Assembly (NCBI RefSeq): GCF_002162135.1
Contig: NZ_CP021382.1
Coordinates: 2,230,001-2,294,000 of the forward strand
DNA: 64,000 nt
Source of the DNA: Cellvibrio sp. PSBB006
Lineage (GTDB): Bacteria; Pseudomonadota; Gammaproteobacteria; Pseudomonadales; Cellvibrionaceae
Reading direction: 5' to 3'
Made by a program: the position numbers and the translations under genes. Under the pieces are notes generated by a model, which worked only from the letters and a program-made list of their open reading frames with translations, was not told the origin of the DNA and ran no database searches. This document shows, one piece after another, positions 3,864-48,732 of this stretch (the stretch's first letter is position 1; each line of letters begins with the position of its first letter).

Positions 3864-5600
3864 TCAGGTACGCTCCGTCTTGCTCAGGTACATGTCACGC
3901 ATTGAACCGTTCGGTGCAACATGCATGGGATAAACGTGTTCAGATTGATCAACCATAATGTCCATAAACACCACGCGATCTTTCAATGCAAAACATTCTT
4001 CCAACTTCGCCTTGAGCTCTTCCTTTTTGGTTACTCGCATACCGACATGGCCGTAGGCTTCAGCCAGTTTGATAAAGTCTGGCAACGAATCCTCATACAA
4101 ACTTTCTGCATAACGGCTGGAGTACTGCATATCCTGCCATTGACGGACCATACCCAGCGCCTGGTTGTTCAAACAGATAACCTTGACCGGCAGATGATAT
4201 TGGGTACAAGTTGAAAGCTCCTGGATACACATCTGGATACTGCCTTCTCCAGTGACGCAAACCACGGTCGCATCACGATGGGCGATCTGCACCCCCATGG
4301 CAGCAGGCAAACCAAAGCCCATGGTGCCCAGACCACCGGAGTTGATCCAGCGGCGCGGCTTGTCAAACTTGTAGTACTGCGCCGCAAACATCTGGTGTTG
4401 GCCTACATCCGAGGTAACAAAAGCATCGCCGTTGGTGACTTCCCAGATAGCCTTAATCACATCTTGCGGTTTGATCACATTGCTGGTGGTGTCATAACGC
4501 GGCTTGGCATAGATGCCATGACGCTCACGCCACTCATTAATCTGCTTCCACCAGGCAGCAATCGCTTCGGCATCCGGACGCTCATCAGTCTCCTGGATCA
4601 ATGCCAGCATCTCACTCAGCACGCTATCTACGGCGCCGACAATCGGCACATCGGCGACAACCGTTTTAGAGATAGATGCTGGATCAATATCCACGTGAAT
4701 AATCTTGGCGTTAGGGCAGAATTTGCTCACCGTGTTAGTCACGCGATCATCAAAGCGCGCCCCGATAGCCAGGATCACATCGCTGTGGTGCATGGCCGTA
4801 TTAGCTTCAAAAGTCCCGTGCATGCCCAACATGCCAAGAAAGCGTTTGTCCGTCGCCGGATAAGCACCCAAGCCCATCAAGGTATTGGTACACGGAAAAT
4901 CGAGCAGTTGAACCAATTGGGTCAACAATTCGGAGGCATTACCCTGAACCACACCGCCGCCGGTATAAATGACCGGCCGTTTAGCACCCAGCAATAACTG
5001 CACAGCCTTTTTAATCTGGCCGGAGTGACCACGTGTAGCCGGTGTATAAGAGCGGATCTTGACCTTATCCGGATATTCATAGGGAAAGGTCTGTGCCGGA
5101 TGAGTAATATCCTTGGGCACATCAATTACCACCGGGCCGGGCCGACCAGTCGCCGCAATAAAGTAGGCTTTCTTGACGATCTCCGGGATTTCGCTGGCGT
5201 GTTTAACCATAAAGCTGTGCTTCACGATCGGGCGAGAGATACCGACCATATCGGTTTCCTGAAACGCATCCTCACCAATCAGGTGGCTCTGCACCTGACC
5301 GGAGATCACAACCATCGGAATAGAATCCATATAAGCTGTGGCAATACCGGTGATGGCATTGGTCGCGCCGGGACCAGATGTCACCAGCACGGTGCCCACT
5401 CGGCCGGTAGAGCGTGAATACGCATCCGCCATATGGGTGGCGGCCTGTTCGTGGCGCACCAGTATGTGCTTGACATCTTGCTGCCTGAAAATAGCGTCGT
5501 AGATATGCAATGCAGCACCGCCCGGGTAGCCGAAGATGTATTCAACACCTTCATCTCGCAACGCGCGGATTAACATATCTCCGCCTGAGAGCATTTCCAC
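3864..5600 (-). CDS. ilvI: Acetolactate synthase large (catalytic) subunit
   Basis: ThDP- and FAD-dependent enzyme joining two pyruvates, or pyruvate and 2-oxobutyrate, in the first common step of branched-chain amino acid synthesis. The catalytic glutamate lies in [14 protein letters not shown]; the ThDP/Mg motif begins GEGSIQM and ends at LNNQALGM; the GMVRQWQ segment carries the Trp typical of true acetohydroxyacid synthases. Length is 578 aa. The best start is a GTG at 5600 (Met-Glu-Met-Leu-Ser-Gly, like E. coli IlvI), seven bases after AGGGG; an ATG two codons later is further from the ribosome site. It is followed directly by ilvH and preceded by a structured leader. Confidence 0.96.
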
Positions 5601-35675: not shown

Positions 35676-37286
35676 ATGAATTCCCAAGGCATCTCTTTTC
35701 ATCATCCATTCGCATTCTGGTTTGGGTGTCTCTTTATTATTGCCGGCGTGCTCGCTCATGTGCCCATGTTCATGCATGCCTCGCACATGGGTTATCGCAT
35801 GGTAGGTATGCCTATGGATACCACCATGCTCACCGGCATGGGATTGATTCCGCTGGGTATCCTTATGGCCTGGTATGGATTAATGCCGCGCCTGGCTCAA
35901 CTGCGCCAAGGTGATCACGGCACTATACATTTCCATGTGGCAGACAACATGCCGCTGAATTGGGAACACTGGAAACTGGTTATAGCCCTGGTTGTCGCCG
36001 TTGCTGTCGATGTGATGAAGCCAGCCACACTCGGGTTTGTCATGCCGGGTATGACCCTGGAATATGAAATCAGCAAGCAAGCCGCCGGTACCCTGGCACT
36101 GGTCGCACTCACCGGCACGACAGTCGGCTCGATCATCTGGGGCCGAATGGCTGACACCATGGGTCGCCGCGCCGCTATTTTATTATCTGCACTTATGTTT
36201 ATCGGCACCGCAATCTGTGGCGCTATGCCGACATTCGAGTGGAACCTGATTATGTGTTTTCTGATGGGTGCCTCCGCCGGCGGTTTGCTTCCGATCACCT
36301 TTACGCTGATGGCTGAAATGATCCCGGCCGCGCATCGCGGTTGGCTGCTCGTGGCGCTAGGCGGCGTGGGAACGTCTGCTGGTTACCTGTTGGCTTCCGG
36401 TTCCGCCGCGGTTCTGGAGCCACTATTCAGCTGGCGCGTGCTATGGATGCTGGGATTACCCACCGGTTTGCTGGTCATATTTCTCAATCGTTACATCCCG
36501 GAGTCACCGCGCTTCCTCGCCAGCGCCGGTTTAAAACGCCAAGCTCGCGCCATCCTCACAAAATTCAACGCGCACATTGATCATGACGCCGATGAACAGA
36601 CGGCGGCCGAAGAAGTCCAGCAGGCCGGCGGCTTTCGCAATATGATCCGCGGCCCTTATGCGCACATTACATTAGGGCTCGTTGGCGCGGGGGTTGCCTG
36701 GGGGTTGGTGAATTTTGGCTTTTTATTGTGGCTGCCAACCAATCTGCGCGACATGGGCATGAGTGCGGAAGCAGCCAATGGACTACTGGCGCAATCAGGC
36801 TTTCTGGCGCTGCCCGGTATCCTGATGGTGATCTGGTTTTATCACCATTGGAGCAGCATCAAAACCCTGGTGTTATTTATTGGTATGACGGCGGCCAGCC
36901 TGGTGTTGTTTTTTATACTGGGGCTTCTGCAGGTCAACGCCCACCTCGCTATCATCACAGCAACCGCGCTGCTGCTCATCAGTGCCAGCGGCGTTATCGC
37001 AATGCTGATTCCTTATGCGGCCGAGATTTATCCGGTACATCTGCGCGGAACCGGGGCAGGAGTAGTTGCCGCCAGTTCCAAATTCGGCGGCATCCTCGGC
37101 GCCGCCTGCGGCGTGCTGGGAGTATTTAATGACCTGGCGCTATCCGCTCTGCTCATCGCAATTCCATTAATTATCTTTGGCGGCTTATTGCTGAAGAGCG
37201 GCATCGACACACGCGGGCGCCGTCTTGAAGAGATACATGCGGCGGTCTTACATAAAGCGGGCAGTCAACCAACGCTGGATGCATAG
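35676..37286 (+). CDS. Major facilitator superfamily transporter
   Basis: A 536-aa inner-membrane transporter with about 12-14 hydrophobic segments. The MFS loop 2-3 motif is visible as GRMADTMGRRAAILLSA, and the sugar-porter-like PESPRFL follows the sixth segment of the core, with a central cytoplasmic loop to about residue 320. The N-terminus carries an unusual extra pair of hydrophobic segments rich in His and Met (HASHMGYRMVGMPMDTTM) before the MFS core at about residue 90. Substrate unknown. It may be co-transcribed with the preceding 577-aa gene. Confidence 0.85.
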   Translation: MNSQGISFHHPFAFWFGCLFIIAGVLAHVPMFMHASHMGYRMVGMPMDTTMLTGMGLIPLGILMAWYGLMPRLAQLRQGDHGTIHFHVADNMPLNWEHWKLVIALVVAVAVDVMKPATLGFVMPGMTLEYEISKQAAGTLALVALTGTTVGSIIWGRMADTMGRRAAILLSALMFIGTAICGAMPTFEWNLIMCFLMGASAGGLLPITFTLMAEMIPAAHRGWLLVALGGVGTSAGYLLASGSAAVLEPLFSWRVLWMLGLPTGLLVIFLNRYIPESPRFLASAGLKRQARAILTKFNAHIDHDADEQTAAEEVQQAGGFRNMIRGPYAHITLGLVGAGVAWGLVNFGFLLWLPTNLRDMGMSAEAANGLLAQSGFLALPGILMVIWFYHHWSSIKTLVLFIGMTAASLVLFFILGLLQVNAHLAIITATALLLISASGVIAMLIPYAAEIYPVHLRGTGAGVVAASSKFGGILGAACGVLGVFNDLALSALLIAIPLIIFGGLLLKSGIDTRGRRLEEIHAAVLHKAGSQPTLDA

Positions 37287-37584: not shown

Positions 37585-37819
37585 ACTAATCTCCTGTTAT
37601 TGCGTTTATAAAAACTGAAATCCTACTGTGAAAAATGGACACCCGGGAAAACCATAGGTTCAGGGACGACTTCATTGCCACATCTCATTAAAAAATAAAA
37701 ATCATGTGCCATTTCCCCAGACCCGTTGCGCTATTAAAATTTCTATTGAGCGGCTATGCTGTAAGCATTGTTAAAAATCGTATCAGGGAAGTGATCAGCC
37801 GGCCTCAGATTGCACGTTG

Positions 37820-40144
37820 ATGAACCAAAAAACCCTACATCAAATCGCCCGATCAACTACGGGTATCGGTACACCGGCACGGTTGTGGTCGTTGTTTGCA
37901 CTGGTGCTGCTATGCTGGCTTTCTTACGGTGCACAAGCTCAAGCCCTGAATAAACAAAAAATTACGGCCTCCTACCTGTATAACTTCGCCAAAAATATTG
38001 AGTGGCCCAACGAAAAGTCGATGACGTCGTTCAACATCGGTTTCTATGGCAGCGACAATCCCCTGCTGTTAAATGAAATCCGCACGATGGCCACCAGCGT
38101 TAAATTGCGAAGCCTGCCGATTACGGTCACCCAGGTTAGCACCCTGAATGCCCTGTCGCGTTTCCATCTGGTGTATGTGGAGCAGGCTAACAACAATATG
38201 GTGTCCGACATCTATGATGCCTTGGGCAGCCAGCCAGTATTACTGGTTACCGCAGAATATCCCAACCAGCAACTGGTGATGATCAACCTGATTACCGACA
38301 ATGATCGCCTGCGTTTCGAGGTTAACCGCTCCAATATCATCAACCATGGTTTGAAACCCCTGCCGGAATTGATCCTCAACGGAGGAACCGAGATTGATGT
38401 GGCTCGGCTGTATCGCGAAGGTCAGGCATCGCTGGTCACCCTGCAAAAACAATTACAGAACCGCGAAAAAACGCTTAACGAATTGAGTAGCGCGATCGAG
38501 GCTCAGGAAGCCAAAAACCAGCGCCTGGAAACCCAGTTGACGGAACTTAATCAAAGCATTCAAAAAAGTGATGCCTTGATTGCTGACCAAAACCGCCTGA
38601 TTCAAAACCAGCTCGACCAAATAGAGCGCAGCAAACAGGAACGCCTCCGGTTATTGGAAGAGGTGGAACAACGCACGCAAGAGTTGGACGACCAGCAACA
38701 GCAGCTTGATGCTATCGTGCAGCAGATTGATCGCCGCGAGAAACGCCTTGCCGAACTGAACACCACCATCAAGTCCCAGGAAAATGAAATACTGACACAA
38801 CGCCAGGCAATCGCCGGCCTCGACGAAAAAGTGGACGCGCAAAAAACGGCACTGACCTATTTGTGGGGCTTGGTGAGTCTGGGCGTGTTGTTGATTATTA
38901 CCATTCTGATCGGCTACACCATCAAGCGCCGCGACAATCAGCGGCTGGCGGAACACAGTAAGGATCTCCAGATTGCAAAAGATCGCCTCGCCATCGCCAA
39001 ACGCAAAGCGGAAGATGCCAGCCAGGCGAAGAGCGAATTCCTGTCACTGATGAGCCATGAACTGCGCACACCACTGCAAGCCATCATCGGTTATACCGAA
39101 GTGGTCATCGAAGAACTGAAACTGGCGGATGATGAAAACCACATTAACGATTTAGCGCGCGTTATCAGCAACAGTGAACGTTTATTAAAGCTGATCAATG
39201 GTGTGCTGGATCTGGCGAAGATTGAGTCCGGCCGTATGGAGCTGGACCTGACAGAAGTCAAACTCTCCAGCCTGGTAGACGAAGCCCTGGGCGTAGTTGC
39301 TCCCTTGCTGGAAAAGAATGCGATCCGCCTCAATGTCGACGTGGATGACGGTAGTTTTCTACCCATGGCCGACCCGGAAAAAATCCTGCATATCCTGATT
39401 AATTTATTAGGCAATGCGAGCAAGTTTTCTCCACAGGGCACCATAACCATCACCGCACTGCATCAACCCAACCGCATTTATATCAGTGTCGCCGATACCG
39501 GTATTGGCCTGTCAGCAGAACAGCAACAGCAAATTTTTGAGCCGTTCAGACAAGCAGATAGCGGCACCACGCGCAAATTCCAGGGCAGCGGACTGGGGCT
39601 GTCGATTACCCGCCAACTGTGCGAGATGATGGGCGGTAGCATTGAGGTGGAAAGTAAATTAGGCGAAGGGGCCAACTTTATTGTCGACCTGCCCCTACCG
39701 ATCGAACTGCCACCCGCTTTTGGCGGTCCAGGTGTGGATGCCAATGCTGACGTTGCCATCCACGATTCTGACATCGCCAGTAACGGCCAGCATATTGTCA
39801 TGATTGATGATGACCCGGCGTTTCTGGATATCATGGCGCGCACCATGCAATCCGAAGGCTTTCTGGTACATACCGCCCATGATGCCGAGACGGGCTTGCG
39901 TTTGTTGCACACCGTCAAACCCGACATAATTACCCTGGATTTATTGTTGCCAGACCAACACGGCTGGATGTTGTTTGAAAAAATCAAGGCAGACCCGGCG
40001 TTACAGGACATTCCCGTTATCATCATCTCCATCATGGACGAGCGTAAGCAAACCCATAAACACCAGGCTGAAGATTATTTAACCAAGCCGATTCGCCGGG
40101 AAACACTCAAGCTCGCCATTCAACGGCTGGTACCAAAAAACTGA
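37820..40144 (+). CDS. YfiR-domain hybrid sensor histidine kinase
   Basis: A 774-aa hybrid kinase. Signal-like hydrophobic stretch (25-40, ending AQA), a periplasmic YfiR/DUF4154 domain (about 44-190; [16 protein letters not shown] is typical), a long coiled coil (200-340) rich in Gln and Glu, one transmembrane segment (about 346-368), HisKA with the phospho-His in [15 protein letters not shown], HATPase with [17 protein letters not shown] and GSGLGLSI, and a C-terminal receiver with phospho-Asp in [13 protein letters not shown]. YfiR domains sense envelope signals. The TonB receptor downstream is a common partner, so the kinase may respond to its ligand. ATG at 37820; a TTG precedes it and the ribosome site is weak. 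Confidence 0.9.
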
Positions 40145-40403
40145 CCGCGCTTTATACCCTCACAGTCAAAAGCACATAAACCCATAGAACAAACTTGGCT
40201 TTCCCCGCCGGGTAAACTATCTTTACCTTCTATGAACATAAGATGGTGTTGATCATAAGATTTTCGTCGCATGTGCCATTACCCTGATCTACCAGGGTCG
40301 CACGGCGCGCAACAACAGATCGTCATTCTCGCAAATAATCCGTTGCATTCTGCACAGGTTGTTTTCTGTGTGCTTGGCGGCACTTCATGAATAGGTTGTC
40401 ATT

Positions 40404-42560
40404 ATGATGTCACCTTATGTTCGTGTGTTTGTTTCGGGATTGCTGCCACTCTTGATGTCAGCCGCAACCATGGCGCAATCCGCTGGCGAAACGACACCGA
40501 ACGATATTTACAACCTGTCACTGGCAGAACTGGGCCAGGTCGAGATCTCTATCGCAACGGGGAACAGCACCCCTTTGGATAAAGCACCGGCCACTGCGTC
40601 TGTTATCTATGCCGCCGAAATCGAAGCCATGGGCGCCCGGAATCTCAATGAGGTGCTGGAGACGGTACCGGGCTTGCACGTTTCTCTATCCACGCTCAGC
40701 CGTCTCGACTCCGTCTATTCTATTCGCGGTATTCACACCGGCTTTAATCCACAGGTCTTGTTGTTGATGAACGGGATACCGGTGCAGTCCAGCTTGCAAG
40801 GTGGTCGACCGTCGCTCTTTCGTCTTCCGGTTGCCAGCATCGCACGGGTAGAAGTTATTCGCGGCCCGGGCTCAGCCATCTATGGTGCGGATGCCTATGC
40901 GGGTGTCATTAATGTCATCACCAAAGATGCTGCCGCGATCAGTGGAACGGAGATCGGTGCGCGCCATGGATCGTTCAACAGCAGTGATTTCTGGTTGCAA
41001 GGCGCAACGAGTTGGAATGACTGGGGTATTGCGTTTAATCTCGCGTATCAGGAAAGTGACGGCGACAAAGACCGCCGTGTTACGACAGATTTACAGTCTT
41101 CTCTTGATGACTCGTTCAATACCGATGCGTCTCTGGCTCCCGGCCCCTTATCGACCCGTTACAAACTGCTTGATACCCATCTGGCGATCAGCAGCGAAAC
41201 CTTACAATTCAATTTGTGGAGTTGGATATCCAAAGATGCAGGCATCGGTGCAGGCGCCACCCAGGCGCTCGATTTCGAAGGCGAAGATGACAGCGAGTTA
41301 TGGATGGCTGATATCACCTATCGTCTCAATGATGACAGTGATACATGGGACCACAGCCTACGTTTCAGCTACTTGTACTACGATCTCCAGGCTCGCTTCG
41401 TTCTTATGCCCGAAGATTCGATCTTACCTATCGGCAGCGACGGCAATTTGAACTTTTCCAATCCGGCCGGACAGGTTTATTTTCCTGACGGTTTGCTCGG
41501 CAATCCCGGGCAACGAGCTGAAGATACGCAGTTTGATCTTATCTCCATCTACAACGGCTGGGATACGCATCGTTTACGCCTCGCGATTGGTACCAGGCGA
41601 CAAACCCTGGCATCGCACGAAAGCAAAAATTATGGTCCGGGTGTTATCGATGGTTCCTCTACCGTTGTTGACGGCACGCTTACCGATGTGAGCGACACAC
41701 CTTTCGTTTATCTTGATGATAGTTCACGCACCATTCATTACCTTTCTGTCCAGGATGAATGGCAACTCGTTTCCGACCTGACGCTGACAGCCGGTGTGCG
41801 CTACGACAATTACTCTGACTTTGGCGGCACCACCAATCCCCGGATTGCACTCGTCTGGGCCACAAGCGAAAACCTGACCACCAAATTGCTCTACGGCAGC
41901 GCTTTTCGTGCACCCTCTTTTTCTGAACAACGGTTCAAAAACAATCCCGTTTCACTTGGCAATCAGGATCTCGATCCTGAACATATTGATACCCTGGAGC
42001 TGTCCTTCAATTACCGTATGAATGCCAATTTTCAGACAACACTGACACTATTTACTTATCAAGCCCAAGACATGATTGAATTTATTCCTGACGACAGCGC
42101 CACCACCAGCACCGCACAAAATGCGCGCGATCAGGACGGGGATGGCTTTGAATGGGAACTGAATTGGCAACCCATTCCCAGCTTGCGCCTGAACGGCAAC
42201 TATTCCTGGCAAGATGCCAAAGATGCGCAGACAGGCCAAGCCGTGGCCGATGCGCCAGGCCAACAATTCAAGGTGGGCGCCAACTGGGAATTTAAACCAC
42301 AATGGTCAATCAACAGCCAAATTTATTGGGTGGGTGATCGTCAACGTGCTGTCGGAGACGCTCGACCGGCAATTGATGATTACACCTTGCTAAACCTCAC
42401 CTTGCGCCGCAAAAATGTGGTGCCCGATCTGGATCTTTCCATCGCGATGCGTAATCTGACCGACGAGGATGCCCGCGAGCCCAGTAACGGTGCCATTGCC
42501 GATGACTACCCTTTGGAGTCGCGCAGTGTTTGGCTGGAGCTGAAGTATCTTTTCAACTGA
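40404..42560 (+). CDS. TonB-dependent outer membrane receptor
   Basis: A 718-aa receptor: signal peptide (1-25, LLMSAATMAQ), a plug domain (about 50-170; APATASVIYAAEIEAMGARN, VEVIRGPGSAIYGADAYAGVINVITK) and a 22-strand barrel to the C-terminal strand ending YLFN. The segment YNLSLAELGQVEISIATG before the plug is typical of receptors paired with YfiR-type kinases. Substrate unknown. The 259-bp gap upstream holds ACCCTG…CAGGGT (40281-40298), a possible operator. It is followed 56 bp later by the citrate-synthase-like pair, so the three may form an operon. Confidence 0.92.
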   Translation: MMSPYVRVFVSGLLPLLMSAATMAQSAGETTPNDIYNLSLAELGQVEISIATGNSTPLDKAPATASVIYAAEIEAMGARNLNEVLETVPGLHVSLSTLSRLDSVYSIRGIHTGFNPQVLLLMNGIPVQSSLQGGRPSLFRLPVASIARVEVIRGPGSAIYGADAYAGVINVITKDAAAISGTEIGARHGSFNSSDFWLQGATSWNDWGIAFNLAYQESDGDKDRRVTTDLQSSLDDSFNTDASLAPGPLSTRYKLLDTHLAISSETLQFNLWSWISKDAGIGAGATQALDFEGEDDSELWMADITYRLNDDSDTWDHSLRFSYLYYDLQARFVLMPEDSILPIGSDGNLNFSNPAGQVYFPDGLLGNPGQRAEDTQFDLISIYNGWDTHRLRLAIGTRRQTLASHESKNYGPGVIDGSSTVVDGTLTDVSDTPFVYLDDSSRTIHYLSVQDEWQLVSDLTLTAGVRYDNYSDFGGTTNPRIALVWATSENLTTKLLYGSAFRAPSFSEQRFKNNPVSLGNQDLDPEHIDTLELSFNYRMNANFQTTLTLFTYQAQDMIEFIPDDSATTSTAQNARDQDGDGFEWELNWQPIPSLRLNGNYSWQDAKDAQTGQAVADAPGQQFKVGANWEFKPQWSINSQIYWVGDRQRAVGDARPAIDDYTLLNLTLRRKNVVPDLDLSIAMRNLTDEDAREPSNGAIADDYPLESRSVWLELKYLFN

Positions 42561-42616
42561 CCATCAGCCAACTAATCAACTGACCAGCCTGGTATTAATT
42601 CCCGCGAGATTTTTTC

Positions 42617-43432
42617 ATGTCAGAAGAGCCCAAGCACGATCAGGTGCGCAGCCGCAACGAACCCTTTACCCAAAAAACCGCAACCCGCATCTGGTCAGAG
42701 CAACCCAGCGAAGACAATCCTTATATTGCGGCCAAAACATTTTGTCACGGTTACGACCTTATCGAGCTGATGGAAAAACGCTCATTCATTGATGTCTTCT
42801 ATTTGCTCTTCCGCGGCGAACTCCCCACGAAGCCCGAAGCACAACTGCTGCAAAGCCTGATGATTGCATTAATTAATCCGGGACCACGCCATGCCGCCAC
42901 TCGCGCAGCCATGAACGTCGGTGTCGGTAAAACCGATCCTTTGCATATATTGCCTATCGCTTCAGCCGTGCTTGGCGGAGCGCATCTCGGTGGCGGCGAA
43001 ATAGAAAGTGCCATGCGCTTTCTCCGTAAAAGACATCATGAAGATCCCGCACTCGTGGCAAATGAGATGATCAATACTCAACAGGAGCAGGAGCACGAGA
43101 ACAATTACGCAGGTTTTGGCAAGCAATATGGTGGTGTCGATCTCATGACCAACGCTATCGCCCAGCAAATGTTGACCATGCATGCCGCCGGTGATGCTTT
43201 GCGTTGGGGACATCAATTTGCAGCGGCTCTGGAGCCTCATGGCGTTGGGTGGTTAACCACAGGCATCGCCGCTGCGGTATTTGCAGACCTCGGCTTTCAT
43301 CCGCGTGCGGGAGGCTGCCTGTTTCAATTATTTGGCGCACCCGGATTAGTGGCACACGGCCTTGAATTGGCTAATAAACCTATTACCGCGATGCCTTTTG
43401 TGAGCGATGAAAATTATGTTATCGAACGATAG
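42617..43432 (+). CDS. Citrate-synthase-fold protein, first of a tandem pair
   Basis: A 271-aa protein with the citrate synthase/citryl-CoA lyase fold. FCHGYDLIEL…FIDVFYLLFRGELP (42-70) matches the family N-terminal region of the large domain; LGGAHLGGGE (119-128) has His123 where citrate synthase has its first catalytic His. The second catalytic His position (GFGH in the family) is GFGKQYGG (167-173) and the catalytic Asp position is Gly (GVGWLTTG, 209-216). It is much shorter than the roughly 430 aa enzyme. Its stop overlaps the next gene by 26 bases. A heteromeric or non-catalytic CoA-binding role is possible. Confidence 0.7.
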   Translation: MSEEPKHDQVRSRNEPFTQKTATRIWSEQPSEDNPYIAAKTFCHGYDLIELMEKRSFIDVFYLLFRGELPTKPEAQLLQSLMIALINPGPRHAATRAAMNVGVGKTDPLHILPIASAVLGGAHLGGGEIESAMRFLRKRHHEDPALVANEMINTQQEQEHENNYAGFGKQYGGVDLMTNAIAQQMLTMHAAGDALRWGHQFAAALEPHGVGWLTTGIAAAVFADLGFHPRAGGCLFQLFGAPGLVAHGLELANKPITAMPFVSDENYVIER

Positions 43433-44273
43433 TACGCTAGCGACACACAGCGATATTTCCTATATCGATTCGCTTGAGCAAAAGCGAGGAAAGATTTTTA
43501 GCAAAACCGGTGGATGGTTTCCCGGCAAAGGCGTGTTCTGCCATGGTTACTCGATGCTTGAGGAACTGGTTGGAAAAAAAACCTATTTTCAAATTCTGGT
43601 ACTGAACGCAACCGGCAAATTAATTGAAAAGCCTCTGGCCGATTGGGTTGAAGCTATTTACGGTTGTTTAAGCTGGCCAGATCCACGGATCTGGTGCAAT
43701 CAAATTGGCGCGCTAGCCGGTGCGGCGCGCACCTCGGTGGTAGCAGCAACGACCATCGGCTCGCTGGCAGCAGACTCTCGCTCCTATGGTCCTTATACAC
43801 TGTTGGGTGGAGTGGAGTTTATTCAAGATGCGTTTCGTCAACATCAGGCGGGTGCAACAGCGGAAGATATTGTTGAAAAAATAACAGCGGCAAATCGTGG
43901 CAAGCCCTACATTGTTGGCTACATACGCCCTATTGCAAAAGGCGATGAGCGCCTGGAAGCAATGGAAAAACTCAGCAAAACGCTCGGATTTCAGGTCGGA
44001 CCGCACCTCACTTTAGCCTATGAAATAGAACAGGTTTTAATGCGCCGATTTGATGAAGGCATGAATATCAATGGATATATGTCAGCGTTCTTATCTGACC
44101 AGGGATTCACTGCTGATGAAGTTTATCGGATGTTCGCAGGCATGGTCGCCAGTGGTGTCACCGCCTGTTATCTCGACACCTACCATCGCCCGCCGGAGAC
44201 TTTTTTGCCATTGCGCTGTGACGATATCGATTATCAGGGTGCAGCACCGCGTACGGTGCCAGATGCAGATTGA
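43407..44273 (+). CDS. Citrate-synthase-fold protein, second of a tandem pair
   Basis: A 288-aa paralogue of the preceding protein, starting inside its end. FCHGYSMLEEL (44-54) repeats the FCHGYDLIEL motif. The first His site is replaced (GPYTLLGGVEF, 128-138), the second reads VGYIRPIAKGDER (170-182) without His but with a conserved-type Arg/Lys, and the Asp site is NINGY (220-224). So none of the three catalytic residues of citrate synthase remains in place. The two proteins may form a mixed oligomer. It converges on the GGDEF/EAL gene with a two-base gap and no terminator. Confidence 0.7.
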   Translation: MKIMLSNDSTLATHSDISYIDSLEQKRGKIFSKTGGWFPGKGVFCHGYSMLEELVGKKTYFQILVLNATGKLIEKPLADWVEAIYGCLSWPDPRIWCNQIGALAGAARTSVVAATTIGSLAADSRSYGPYTLLGGVEFIQDAFRQHQAGATAEDIVEKITAANRGKPYIVGYIRPIAKGDERLEAMEKLSKTLGFQVGPHLTLAYEIEQVLMRRFDEGMNINGYMSAFLSDQGFTADEVYRMFAGMVASGVTACYLDTYHRPPETFLPLRCDDIDYQGAAPRTVPDAD

Positions 44274-44275
44274 CA

Positions 44276-46846
44276 TCAGGAGCGCGTAAAACGGCTCAAT
44301 AGCGTAGAGTTCGTTTTAGCATGCCCCACATGATTGCGGGTAAATATTTTCTCTATCGGTAAGGGATAACCGATATGGAATCCCTGTACAAAGTCGATAC
44401 CCATCTCTTGCAGGATATCCAGAATTTCCTGGTTCTCAACATACTCGGCCACGGCTTTTTTACCCAGCGCCTGAACCACCTGGATAATGGAACGCACCAG
44501 GGTTTGATCAACGGCATCGCGGTGCAGGTTTTGAATAAATGAACCATCCAGTTTGATGTAATCCGCCGGCAAGTCTTTCAAATAAGCAAAACTACTGAAG
44601 CCGGAACCGAAATCATCCACCGAAAAACTGCAGCCCAACGCATGCAAATCAGCAATGACCCGTTGCGTGATATGGAGATTGAACAGGCTATCGCTCTCCG
44701 TCAGCTCAAAGGTAATGCGACTGGCATCCACACCGGTTTCCTGCAAACAGTCAAGGATGGACGGCACCAGACTTTCATCTTTAAACGCCTGAGCAGACAG
44801 GTTAATCGCAATGTGATTAAGCTCCGGATATTCCTTCAAGGTTCTGCTGGCGAGTTTAATAATCCAGCGATCCAGTAAATGCATTTCGCCTGACGTTTCC
44901 AATGCTGGAATAAACTCTGCCGGGCCGATAATACGCCCGTCGCTGTCGCGCATACGAATCAAGGCTTCGTAATAGGAGATCTCGCGTTTTTTAACATCAA
45001 AGATTGGCTGGAAGTACAGCACCATGCGGTCTTCGGCAATTGCCCGGCGAATCTTTTGGGACACATTGATGCAGCGCCGTAATTCATCACTTTCGTTATC
45101 CTGCGGATCGTATTGATGAATCAGATTTCGGCCGCGGCCTTTGGCTACATACAATGCGATATCTGCACGCATCAAATATTCTTCGGAATTGGCGGTACTA
45201 CCGTCAATCAGCGAGAGACCGATGCTGCAACCGAGGTTCATTCGCTGATCATGCAATTGAAAACCGAAATCCCCGATAATCGTCTGGATATCCCGCGCAA
45301 AATGGTTCGCTTCTTCGCCACTGATATCATGCAATAACACAGCAAACTCATCGCCACCCAAACGACATAATAAATCCGGTTTGCGAATACGTTTACCCAG
45401 TAACAATGACATTTCTCGCAACACATCATCGCCCTTCTGATGACCGAAGGTGTCATTGATGACTTTGAAGTGGTCGAGGTCAATATATACCAGACCGTGA
45501 TGGCGGTTATTACGCAGCGCGTCAGCGGCCAATTGCTCCAGCGTCGATTCAAAAAAGTGGCGATTAAATAAGCCCGTCAATGAATCGTGCATGGCCAGGT
45601 ATTTAAGTTGTTCCTGGGTTTCGCGCCGCTCAGTAATATTGTCGAGACATACCGTCAGGGTGGATAAATTTTCCGAGCGGGTCGAGCGGCTGGGCTTTAA
45701 TTGCGTCCAGATTTTCTGCTTTTTTCTGTTGCACAAACACAACTCAATTTCAGGGCAAGGTTTTTTCTGCAGCAAGGCCAGGCTAATTTTTTCCTTGAAC
45801 AGCGTAAAATGAGCGGCATCTTCCGGCGCGATAAACATCTCAAGCGAAGAGCCGAGGGATTCTTCAATCGAAAAGCCCATCATGCCTTCCCACGCCCGAT
45901 TCAGAAAACAAATTTTAAAATCCTTATCCAATTCCATCACCACCGACTGCAGGTCATCCAATAACTGGTGATGGCTTTCGTATAAATTACGATAAGCCAG
46001 CTCGCGGGCTTCGAGGGATCTTACGCGTGCGGCAAATTGTGCGTTGCTGACCAGGAAGTCATCGCGGTGGATGGCGATATCACAAACCTTGCGCAATTGC
46101 TCCGCGCGAAATGGCTTGGGTAAAAAATCCACTGCGCCTAATAACATCAATTCTTCGGCCTGATCGATGGTGGTGTGTGCGGTCATGATGACCACGGGTT
46201 GATTGGGGTCGATGCGCTGGATCTCTATCAGGATGTCGCGCCCCGAGATGGTAGGCAGCATGATATCGAGCAATACCAGATCGTGACGCCGCGCTTGCCA
46301 GGCGTGCAACCCGGCTTCACCATCAGCAGCGACTTCAATATCAAAAGGCGTGGCCAGCACGCGCTTGATTAAATCTGAGGTGTCCTGCTGGTCTTCTACC
46401 ACCAGCAAACGTGGCCTCGCCAGTTCACCTTTGTGCTCAGTGGCGAAGTGTTTAACCAGTTCCGGCAACCGATAAAGGTGATTCAGCGGCACCAGATAAT
46501 TGATGCCGTACTCACGCGCCGTCACTTCTGCAATACGTTCACACCAAGTGCTGGTGACAATAATAATCGGCAGGTCCGCGCGACAGTTCAGGATACCGCT
46601 GCGCACCAGACGCGACAGCCGCCAACCGTCAAGGTCGCGCGTGTCGACATCGAGAACCAGCAGATCAACAGGATGGTGGCGCAGATAACGCAACGCTTTG
46701 GTAGCAGAGTCCACTAACGTAAGGCGGGAATGACCGGCTTTTGTCAGGCAGGCGTTAATTTGTTCCAGCGCTGCCGGATCGTTATTCACAATCAGAATTG
46801 AGGGAAGCGATGAGGCTTGGTTGTTATTAGTGGTAATAGACGACAC
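44276..46846 (-). CDS. Dual-receiver PAS–GGDEF–EAL protein
   Basis: An 856-aa cytoplasmic c-di-GMP regulator. First receiver (17-130) with Asp in LLVLDVDTRDLDGWR, second receiver (143-265) with LVLLDIMLPTISGRD, PAS (about 300-410), GGDEF (about 420-590) with an intact RLGGDEFAVLL and an I-site RKPD five residues before it, and EAL (about 600-850) with YYEALIRMRD, NLSAQ, ELTESD, DDFGSGFSS and YIKLDG. The AE.VE motif reads AEYVEN. Both enzyme domains look complete, so synthesis and breakdown of c-di-GMP are both possible. It has no transmembrane segment; the partner kinase is unknown, but the hybrid kinase at 37.8 kb is nearby. Confidence 0.93.
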   Translation of the reverse strand: MSSITTNNNQASSLPSILIVNNDPAALEQINACLTKAGHSRLTLVDSATKALRYLRHHPVDLLVLDVDTRDLDGWRLSRLVRSGILNCRADLPIIIVTSTWCERIAEVTAREYGINYLVPLNHLYRLPELVKHFATEHKGELARPRLLVVEDQQDTSDLIKRVLATPFDIEVAADGEAGLHAWQARRHDLVLLDIMLPTISGRDILIEIQRIDPNQPVVIMTAHTTIDQAEELMLLGAVDFLPKPFRAEQLRKVCDIAIHRDDFLVSNAQFAARVRSLEARELAYRNLYESHHQLLDDLQSVVMELDKDFKICFLNRAWEGMMGFSIEESLGSSLEMFIAPEDAAHFTLFKEKISLALLQKKPCPEIELCLCNRKKQKIWTQLKPSRSTRSENLSTLTVCLDNITERRETQEQLKYLAMHDSLTGLFNRHFFESTLEQLAADALRNNRHHGLVYIDLDHFKVINDTFGHQKGDDVLREMSLLLGKRIRKPDLLCRLGGDEFAVLLHDISGEEANHFARDIQTIIGDFGFQLHDQRMNLGCSIGLSLIDGSTANSEEYLMRADIALYVAKGRGRNLIHQYDPQDNESDELRRCINVSQKIRRAIAEDRMVLYFQPIFDVKKREISYYEALIRMRDSDGRIIGPAEFIPALETSGEMHLLDRWIIKLASRTLKEYPELNHIAINLSAQAFKDESLVPSILDCLQETGVDASRITFELTESDSLFNLHITQRVIADLHALGCSFSVDDFGSGFSSFAYLKDLPADYIKLDGSFIQNLHRDAVDQTLVRSIIQVVQALGKKAVAEYVENQEILDILQEMGIDFVQGFHIGYPLPIEKIFTRNHVGHAKTNSTLLSRFTRS

Positions 46847-46932
46847 GCACGAGACTCCCGGCTAAGCTCCTTTCTAGCCTAGCATATACCAGCAAACCCT
46901 TTGGGTTAACCCGATAAAAACCAAACTTGCCG

Positions 46933-48732
46933 TCAACCACCGGGGGTCGCCGAGCCCTGTTGCGCCAAGCCGCTGATACGGTCACCCATAGGAGGTACTT
47001 CATCACGGTCGATACGCACATCCAGTAATGTCGGACCGGATTTCGCAAAGAGCGCCTGCATATCGAGCAACTCCAATTGCTGAGGACGCTCAATCACAAT
47101 GCCGTCGATACCCATGGCACGCGCCATAGCAGCATAATTCACGTCGTTTAACTGCCAGCCGATGGATTCCTGCTGACCGAGTCTTTGACCGTGCATCACC
47201 ATGCCCATGGCCGCATCGTTGAGCACAACAAATACCACCGGCAGCTGTTGCTGAGCCGCAACGGTAATTTCCTGCGCACTCATCAAATAAGATCCATCGC
47301 CGACGATACAGACCGTCGGTGCCCGGCGATTGGCGATGGCGGAACCAATCGCCGCCCCGATAGACCACGCCATGGAACCGTATCCCATCGCGATGCGATA
47401 CAAGCCTTCGCTATTGCGACGCATCAGGTAATGCGTGGCCCATGACCAGCCATTACCCGCGTCAACAAAGATACGCGTGTCATCCGGCAAAGCCCTGGAG
47501 AGATAAGTCATCAATCGTTGCGGTTTAACCGGTGCTTCATTGCATAAACATTTCTCAGGTTCCTGCACCGTGGCGTAGCCGTCGAAAATATTCTTTTTGC
47601 CGCGCCCCGCCAGGGACTGCCATTGACGCCCCCATTGGCGCGCCGTCTTCACTTGCATCAGCAGCCGATCAAAGATGCAGTCAATATTGCCGAAGACATG
47701 CAAGCAGGCCATTGGCGAACGCGTAAAATGTTCCGCGCACGAATCAATGTGTACCAGTTTATTGTTCAGCAAATCTTCCTTCCAACCACTGGTCCCCAAC
47801 TCCTCCAACGCTGTTCCCACCGCTAAAATCAATTCCACGTTCGGGTTTCGCAACAAATGCTTCGCGCTGTCGTGGCCAGCAAACCCATAAACACCGCGGT
47901 ATAACGGGTGGGTTTCATCAACCCAGGATTTACCGGTAGGGCCGGTAACAAAAGGGGTATTGGTGAGTTCGGCAAATTCCACCAGTTGCTTGGCCGCTCG
48001 CCCCACACCGCTACCGATGTACATCACCATGCGTTCAACCCGGGCCAGCTTTTCATACAAGCGTCCGATGGCAAGATCATCCACCATAGAAAAATTCGGT
48101 ACCAGTAAATCACCTTGTATCCGACGGGTGTCGACAGAAGACCGAAGCACATCCGAAGGAATGCTCAGGTGCACCGGACCACAGGTTCCCTGATGCGCGC
48201 TCATGATGGCGGACACCAATTTATTTTCCAGTTGTTCCTGGTGCGATATCAGCGTATTAAACCGGGTGACATAGCGGAACATACCTACTGTATCGATAGC
48301 GGTACAACTGGATTCCTGCAGCGCACCTCTGCCAAATTTGGGCAGTGGCGTCTGCGCGGTGATGACCAGCATGGGAATCTCTTCAACAAAGGCGGATGCC
48401 ACACCGGTAATTAAATTCGTAGCTCCCGGCCCGGTTGTACTGCATACCACGCCCATCTTGCCGGTTTCACGGTAATAGCCATCTGCCATAAACGCGGCAC
48501 CGCATTCGTGGCGCGCTACGACCAGGCGCGGACCACCGTGCCGCTCGCTGCGCGCCAGTGCGTTTAACAAGGGCTCAATCGCCCCGCCTGGAACACCGAA
48601 AACCACCTCTATACCCAATTGCTGTAGATAACCCACGATGAGATCAGCACCGGTTGGGGTAATGACAGCGTGTGGTTGCGAGTCAGTTTTGGCAGGAGAA
48701 AATGGGATAGCGTTGTTAACGGCCTGTAACAT
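46933..48732 (-). CDS. ThDP-dependent enzyme, acetolactate-synthase-like
   Basis: A 599-aa protein of the IlvB-like ThDP family. Catalytic Glu in VARHECGAAFMADGYY; ThDP/Mg motif starting GDGSYLMSAQE and ending VVLND rather than LNN. The middle domain is of the FAD/TPP central type. It lacks the Trp of the QWQ segment that sets substrate choice in true acetohydroxyacid synthases (here GMVMHGQRLGQQ), and no small subunit gene is adjacent; the window has a complete ilvIH elsewhere. So a specialised 2-oxoacid lyase or carboligase is likelier than a second biosynthetic AHAS. An N-terminal extension of about 25 residues precedes the domain. It stands alone. Confidence 0.8.
   Translation of the reverse strand: MLQAVNNAIPFSPAKTDSQPHAVITPTGADLIVGYLQQLGIEVVFGVPGGAIEPLLNALARSERHGGPRLVVARHECGAAFMADGYYRETGKMGVVCSTTGPGATNLITGVASAFVEEIPMLVITAQTPLPKFGRGALQESSCTAIDTVGMFRYVTRFNTLISHQEQLENKLVSAIMSAHQGTCGPVHLSIPSDVLRSSVDTRRIQGDLLVPNFSMVDDLAIGRLYEKLARVERMVMYIGSGVGRAAKQLVEFAELTNTPFVTGPTGKSWVDETHPLYRGVYGFAGHDSAKHLLRNPNVELILAVGTALEELGTSGWKEDLLNNKLVHIDSCAEHFTRSPMACLHVFGNIDCIFDRLLMQVKTARQWGRQWQSLAGRGKKNIFDGYATVQEPEKCLCNEAPVKPQRLMTYLSRALPDDTRIFVDAGNGWSWATHYLMRRNSEGLYRIAMGYGSMAWSIGAAIGSAIANRRAPTVCIVGDGSYLMSAQEITVAAQQQLPVVFVVLNDAAMGMVMHGQRLGQQESIGWQLNDVNYAAMARAMGIDGIVIERPQQLELLDMQALFAKSGPTLLDVRIDRDEVPPMGDRISGLAQQGSATPGG

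Follow-up and report, generated by a model that had tools for sequence, protein, structure and literature searches.

In pig citrate synthase the catalytic residues are H274, H320 and D375, and R329 binds oxaloacetate. ThDP-dependent carboligases of the BbmA, CsmA and ScyA types carry a cofactor motif and a catalytic Glu, and in the carbazole systems CqsB3-CqsB1 and NzsH-NzsJ a ThDP enzyme is coupled to a second carbon-carbon enzyme, which is KASIII-like. The RpfF/RpfC/RpfG and LuxP/LuxQ systems provide precedents for a synthase gene beside those of a sensor kinase and a c-di-GMP protein, and for a periplasmic binder that adjoins its kinase; in the Rpf/DSF system RpfF is a crotonase-fold synthase and RpfG an HD-GYP regulator.

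Here we analysed a stretch of 64,000 nucleotides from Cellvibrio sp. PSBB006 (the window), in which two adjacent genes, A and B, are encoded near a ThDP carboligase and genes for sensing and c-di-GMP turnover. A and B share the fold of citrate synthase and citryl-CoA lyase (6hxp; PRK06224) and homology over most of their length, but unlike these enzymes they lack the His/His/Asp triad, are two diverged adjacent genes, carry a new invariant Arg and keep other genomic partners. The module carboligase resembles the BbmA, CsmA and ScyA types in its cofactor motif and catalytic Glu; in contrast to them, it is co-inherited with A/B and scores under the cut-offs of the ScyA models. Some variants of the module carry KAS III next to the carboligase, much as the carbazole systems do, whereas A/B is a citrate-synthase-fold pair and the module adds a receptor and c-di-GMP genes. 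The proximity of enzyme, sensor kinase and c-di-GMP genes, and of a binder to the kinase, recalls RpfF/RpfC/RpfG and LuxP/LuxQ; however, the module enzymes are neither crotonase nor LuxS, its output protein is of the GGDEF-EAL rather than the HD-GYP type, a TonB receptor is added, and its signal is putative. Neither crotonase-fold nor HD-GYP domains were present in the module proteins of the window, which sets it apart from Rpf/DSF, and in the open-licence literature we found no published description of a carboligase-A-B module.

Results

The module in the Cellvibrio window

The module runs from 37817 to 48732 of the window, with the following genes:

37817..40144, + strand: hybrid histidine kinase of 775 aa with an N-terminal YfiR/DUF4154 domain; kinase and receiver motifs present
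40404..42560, + strand: TonB-dependent outer-membrane receptor of 718 aa
42617..43432, + strand: gene A, a citrate-synthase-fold protein of 271 aa lacking the His/His/Asp triad; R91 in NPGPR is invariant
43407..44273, + strand: gene B, a citrate-synthase-fold protein of 288 aa (285 aa if the start is 43416), triad lost; conserved residues R94, W96, N98, R174, D180, R182, N220, D231, C254, Y276 and R282
44276..46846, − strand: REC-REC-PAS-GGDEF-EAL protein of 856 aa; GGDEF, EAL and DDFG motifs intact
46933..48732, − strand: ThDP-dependent carboligase of the acetolactate-synthase superfamily; RHE glutamate and GDG-N cofactor motif intact

An initial annotation had reported open frames of 271 and 288 aa for A and B and, upstream of them, a TonB receptor and a kinase with a YfiR domain. 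All of these are borne out, but it had overlooked the two genes downstream on the other strand, REC-GGDEF-EAL and, past it, the carboligase. The overlap of 26 bases that it gave for A and B holds with a B start at 43407, but shrinks to 17 bases with the ATG at 43416, where the database form of B (P0001, 285 aa) begins. Directly upstream of the kinase lies an MFS transporter gene (35676-37286, + strand), which did not cluster with the neighbours of other loci, and at 3864-5600 (− strand), apart from the module carboligase, is what by sequence is an acetolactate synthase large subunit of the ordinary type. The genome's true citrate synthase is encoded elsewhere, apart from A/B.

Two citrate-synthase-fold paralogues without the catalytic triad

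Sequence comparison places A and B in the citrate synthase/citryl-CoA lyase superfamily, as had been proposed, closest to citryl-CoA lyase; the homology spans most of both proteins. Both matched PRK06224 subfamilies in NCBIfam (E=2.4e-24 for A and 1.1e-12 for B), far below the curated cut-offs (86 of 212 bits and 48 of 245 bits, respectively); in Pfam, A matched citrate synthase over a short stretch (E=2.4e-7) and B matched no family. Profiles of A relatives (67 sequences) and B relatives (65 sequences) aligned over most of their length with the solved citryl-CoA lyase 6hxp (8e-29 and 8e-17, respectively). That the two are paralogues, another point of the initial annotation, was upheld by profile-profile alignment (hhalign, 99.2%, E=1.3e-19), and in a tree A, B and the lyase group each formed one clade (100/95, 100/100 and 100/97 for 33, 33 and 21 rows, respectively).

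We read the catalytic positions from two alignments, one of 81 A and 83 B sequences together with 6hxp and the citrate synthase of this genome, and another of 33 A and 33 B sequences against 21 citryl-CoA-lyase-like rows. No triad position was conserved in A or B in either alignment, in agreement with the earlier reading that most catalytic residues are lost; judged by the triad, A/B is not a catalytically competent citrate synthase or citryl-CoA lyase. At the first His, A is mixed (H22 Y19 L12 F6, n=81) in a region that is hard to align in this protein, and B has Tyr (81/83 in the first alignment; Tyr 31 and Phe 2 of 33 in the second). The second-His position is variable in A. In B an invariant Arg occupies this column or the adjacent one, depending on the alignment; in the second alignment Arg stands at this His in 33/33 B sequences, and A is mixed at all three triad positions. 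The position of the catalytic Asp holds mostly Thr, Pro or Ser in A and Asn, Ala or Gly in B. With the usual acid-base residues gone, a citrate-synthase-type condensation cannot run by the usual route in A/B.

Two finer claims about these residues fared less well. His123 of A had been taken for a retained catalytic His, and we rejected it as such, since the residue is His in just 22 of 81 orthologues and Tyr, Leu or Phe in many. B had been said to keep none of the catalytic residues, which is right for the triad but not overall, since D180 (81/83) and R182, N220 and R282 (83/83 each) persist. B shares the Asp and Arg of the DPR motif (D180/R182) and the C-terminal Arg with 6hxp and the genome's citrate synthase; R182, the putative oxaloacetate-binding Arg of this motif, was present in 83/83 B sequences (33/33 in the second alignment) and was unconserved in A. 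The DPR Asp was considered and dismissed as a catalytic Asp, the catalytic Asp of citrate synthase being, as we take it, that of NVD, which is lost in A and B. An Arg in NPGPR of A and PDPR of B was invariant (33/33 and 33/33) and occurred in 0/21 citryl-CoA-lyase rows. Of these 21 control rows, 13 keep the full triad and all 21 the binding Arg. A separate clade of eight citryl-CoA-lyase-like rows (L160, L165, L167-L169, L171, L172 and L174) has kept the second His and the binding Arg and lost the first His and the Asp.

Spread and pairing of A and B

Searches at E<=1e-3 yielded 1186 A relatives and 1311 B relatives (the best 120 of each listed), numbers that exclude chance. Of 144 family genomes, 36 carried B, as did 33 of 274 sampled from the class and 10 of 299 sampled from the phylum, the last count including the window's genome and one genome of the class sample. 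Named records include Cellvibrio, Teredinibacter, Rheinheimera, Alteromonas, Catenovulum and Aliikangiella, and also Desulfuromonadales such as Malonomonas rubra.

For 82 of 86 B's, the gene immediately upstream on the same strand is A, and a joined-query search found two A-B fusions (P0241, from which the first part of B is absent, and P0242); both observations support the co-encoding of the pair that the initial annotation had read as heteromeric, and A and B probably do form a heteromer. The two genes are apart from each other in one genome (G279). A third candidate A-B fusion, P0085, proved to be a B-B tandem of 504 aa, and P0249 resembles A but begins with ~150 additional residues that have no Pfam match.

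A recurring gene set around A and B

Clustering of open frames from the named and family loci revealed a gene set that recurs despite rearranged order. We scanned 84 loci (38 + 14 + 31 loci and the window), picked for a match to B and so a non-random sample, with open frames found mechanically and bit thresholds of 60 for A, B and the binder, 450 for the carboligase, 40 for the TonB receptor, 200 for the kinase and 300 for REC-GGDEF-EAL. Matches were counted anywhere in the locus stretch, so that those to receptor, kinase and regulator may include non-orthologues: A was found in 81 loci, the carboligase in 70, the TonB receptor in 71, the kinase in 59, REC-GGDEF-EAL in 53 and the periplasmic binder (PF04392) in 42 (78, 67, 68, 56, 51 and 41, respectively, of the 81 loci left without three duplicate genomes). 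TonB receptor and kinase genes recur with the A/B pair at most of these loci, a co-occurrence that had been put forward for checking. A/B and the carboligase are co-inherited, and genes for a TonB receptor, a binder or YfiR, a kinase and a REC-GGDEF-EAL protein usually accompany them.

Accessory genes vary. Counting genes no further than 3 kb from A, B or the carboligase, nine of the 84 loci (duplicates L011/L082 and L024/L079 included) held an SDR and six an Asn synthetase, and B-SDR fusions were seen in P0243-P0245 and L011. What seemed to be a third paralogue, C, after B was really an SDR that such a fusion had drawn into the A/B cluster. In L141, L142 and L144 the carboligase-A-B neighbourhood resembles a small biosynthetic cluster, with a weakly FkbH-like protein and a MaoC-SDR fusion (Pfam on L144, under cut-off, for the FkbH likeness; Pfam on L142 for the MaoC-SDR fusion), and in a Hahella-labelled metagenome genome (L028:12203-19363) an NRPS-PKS megasynthase of 2386 aa lies near an A/B module with SDR. 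No PADLOC model matched A, B or the carboligase, and a role in anti-phage defence was dropped.

A ThDP carboligase co-inherited with A and B

Three TPP-enzyme domains, the catalytic Glu and the GDG-N motif place the module carboligase in the ThDP carboligase superfamily, and its closest solved relatives are BbmA and CsmA. It scored 317 of 538 bits against the acetolactate synthase model TIGR00118, under the curated cut-off, and was under the cut-off of all 25 NCBIfam models listed, including ScyA and ScyA-related. In the family and class scans, module carboligases matched at 634-919 bits, versus ~340-371 for ordinary acetolactate synthases.

In the family the carboligase was present in 40 of the 144 genomes, among them 36/36 of those with B (Fisher p=8e-30), and in the class in 37 of 274, of which 30 were in common with B (Fisher p=5e-30); these tests assume independent genomes, an assumption that does not hold, and both sets contain the window's genome. 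The three of 33 B-bearing class genomes without a full carboligase were G271, G177, with a truncated carboligase and a broken B frame, and G195, with just a B fragment at a contig end. The carboligase was missing from 14 of the 84 loci, and a check of 11 genomes or records with such loci (omitting L016, L025, L026 and L132) found it elsewhere in 9 of 11, the two without it being G271 and the record of L014 (2.1 Mb, from a metagenome). L016 and L132 have a carboligase piece at the contig end, and the genome of L132 (G336) has the carboligase. In G011 the carboligase is present at the A/B locus, and this locus (L071) has two tandem carboligase-A-B sets with one kinase and one TonB receptor.

The carboligase lies directly upstream of A in 28 cases, and in L121 carboligase and A share one 886-aa frame in which Pfam finds three TPP domains; this fusion is a single case and comes from a draft genome. 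A 904-aa frame in G207, considered as a second such fusion, has just an upstream extension without a Pfam match.

Carboligase loci without B

The carboligase occurs without B in 11 genomes (four from the family, seven from the class). In four of them (L145, L146, L147 and L186) a KAS III gene adjoins the carboligase, in L186 between carboligase and TonB receptor; by score, the KAS III of L145, L146 and L147 are one closely related type and that of L186 is a distant one. The motifs that we take to mark the Cys, His, Asn site of KAS III can be read in L145 and L186. In L145, genes for a CHASE8-PAS-GGDEF-EAL protein and a TonB receptor are present as well.

In L188 a methyltransferase gene separates the carboligase from the TonB receptor, and binder and kinase are present but A/B and KAS III are not; as this locus keeps the carboligase and the sensing genes, A/B is dispensable there. 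In L190 a 2-oxoglutarate dehydrogenase operon lies beside the carboligase, L187, L189 and L191 have other neighbours, and L148/L196 and L192 are near contig ends. A KAS III gene also lies ~2.6 kb from the carboligase in L155, though this genome (G344) has B on another contig, and KAS III is therefore not strictly a substitute for A/B.

Receptor, kinase and c-di-GMP genes

Among the 84 loci, 42 had the binder and 23 had YfiR, and these sets did not overlap, which looks like replacement of one sensing part by the other; in 21 of the 23, kinase and YfiR share one frame. Not every module has the sensing half, since 19 of the 84 loci, eight of them spanning at least 19.5 kb, have neither binder nor YfiR. 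Two loci of this kind, L080 and L081, have proteins of ~265 aa from one cluster near A/B, one of the two weakly SBP_bac_3 in Pfam. The module TonB receptor was missing in 13 of the 84 loci, six of them at least 19.5 kb long, with short contigs accounting for part of the absences, and its matches were weak in L127 and L129-L131 (78 and about 255 bits). The best-scoring models for the receptor were heme, TOL_0244, siderophore and B12-type, all far below their cut-offs.

In seven loci kinase and REC-GGDEF-EAL are joined in one frame of 1373-1541 aa (L073, L074, L084, L114, L120, L122 and L126; the frame of L122 runs off its stretch, and the Pfam domains were read for L126), and in L023 and L136 just the front part of the kinase profile is joined to REC-GGDEF-EAL. 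Other sensors occur as well. In L144, which belongs to another family, and by clustering in L141 and L142, A/B is followed by an STK-AAA-GAF-kinase and a LuxR-type regulator, and L129-L131 have proteins of one cluster after the binder, in L130 by Pfam a hybrid kinase with HAMP/PAS/HisKA/REC and CHASE8 under cut-off. L141, L142 and L144 (f199) and L143 (f212) are without the module TonB receptor. The occurrence of different sensors beside the same enzymes suggests that the product is sensed, although a substrate could be what is sensed; TonB receptors with such kinases could equally fit nutrient sensing.

Discussion

We reasoned that the locus may encode a small-molecule synthase together with its own sensing and c-di-GMP circuit, with A/B making or controlling a second carbon-carbon step, a reading to which we give only a shade under an even chance. 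As we infer the chemistry, product and sensing role of the module, an A/B heteromer and the carboligase would together produce a small molecule that exits the cell, and the receptor or binder and the kinase would detect it and then adjust c-di-GMP, a logic like that of RpfF/RpfC/RpfG with other enzymes. The second carbon-carbon step is assigned to A/B mainly by analogy with the KAS III beside the carboligase in 4 of the 11 B-less genomes. The new heteromeric carbon-carbon lyase or ligase that the initial annotation had thought conceivable is, of its two suggestions, the one that fits best. That the whole is a widespread, apparently undescribed diffusible-signal system, in which carboligase and triad-less A/B perform new carbon-carbon or acyl-transfer chemistry and an extracellular molecule acts through TonB receptor, binder or YfiR and kinase on c-di-GMP, is a more tentative proposal, and one that we think more probably wrong than right.

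A and B could instead be a non-catalytic accessory pair of the carboligase, serving as activator, specificity factor or scaffold in the manner of the regulatory subunit of acetolactate synthase. The loss of the triad in both proteins, the carboligase-A fusion, the near-perfect co-inheritance and the 11 genomes in which the carboligase occurs without B would all fit such a pair; however, the many invariant polar residues of B suggest a ligand pocket, and a KAS III with catalytic residues can occupy the same place, and we regard this explanation as unlikely while still taking it seriously. The remaining functional suggestion of the initial annotation, a CoA- or acid-binding sensor, here as an intracellular subunit, found no support and has very little credence with us: catalytic residues are indeed lost and kinase genes adjoin A/B, but in none of the 84 loci is A or B fused to a module kinase or regulator, the fusion partners being the carboligase, A and B each other, and SDR, and kinase and regulator vary while carboligase-A-B stays constant (L141, L142 and L144). 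Co-inheritance with the carboligase, and a KAS III that can adjoin it where B is missing, likewise speak against a sensor subunit.

The direction of the chemistry may also be the reverse, with the module importing and degrading an environmental acid that TonB receptor and binder capture, and A/B and carboligase cleave, while the kinase sets lifestyle through c-di-GMP. Among named enzymes, the closest relative of A/B is a lyase, and receptor and binder are frequent (71/84 and 42/84 loci), yet no ABC permease was seen among the small selection of neighbours run through Pfam, the accessory genes look biosynthetic (SDR, Asn synthetase, KAS III, methyltransferase, MaoC-SDR and a weak FkbH match), and the four loci of f199 and f212 named above do without the module TonB receptor; on balance we consider catabolism decidedly improbable. 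Were the product a metal chelator, a small metallophore that the TonB receptor imports and whose availability the kinase senses, the heme, siderophore and B12-type models that score best for the receptor would make sense, distant as they are, and carboligase plus citrate-type chemistry could yield hydroxy-acid ligands. An unsystematic look at annotated neighbours, however, noticed no metal-uptake genes, and the 13 of 84 loci without the receptor, partly short contigs, also tell against a metallophore, which seems to us very improbable.

If the preferred reading of a small-molecule synthase with its own sensing circuit is true, the module would represent a new type of signal synthase and a new use of a well-known enzyme fold, and if just its enzymatic half is true, a conserved two-enzyme route to a compound, for which the KAS III variants would be a natural comparison. 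In Cellvibrio, Teredinibacter and the like, it would provide a testable link between a metabolite and a lifestyle controlled by c-di-GMP.
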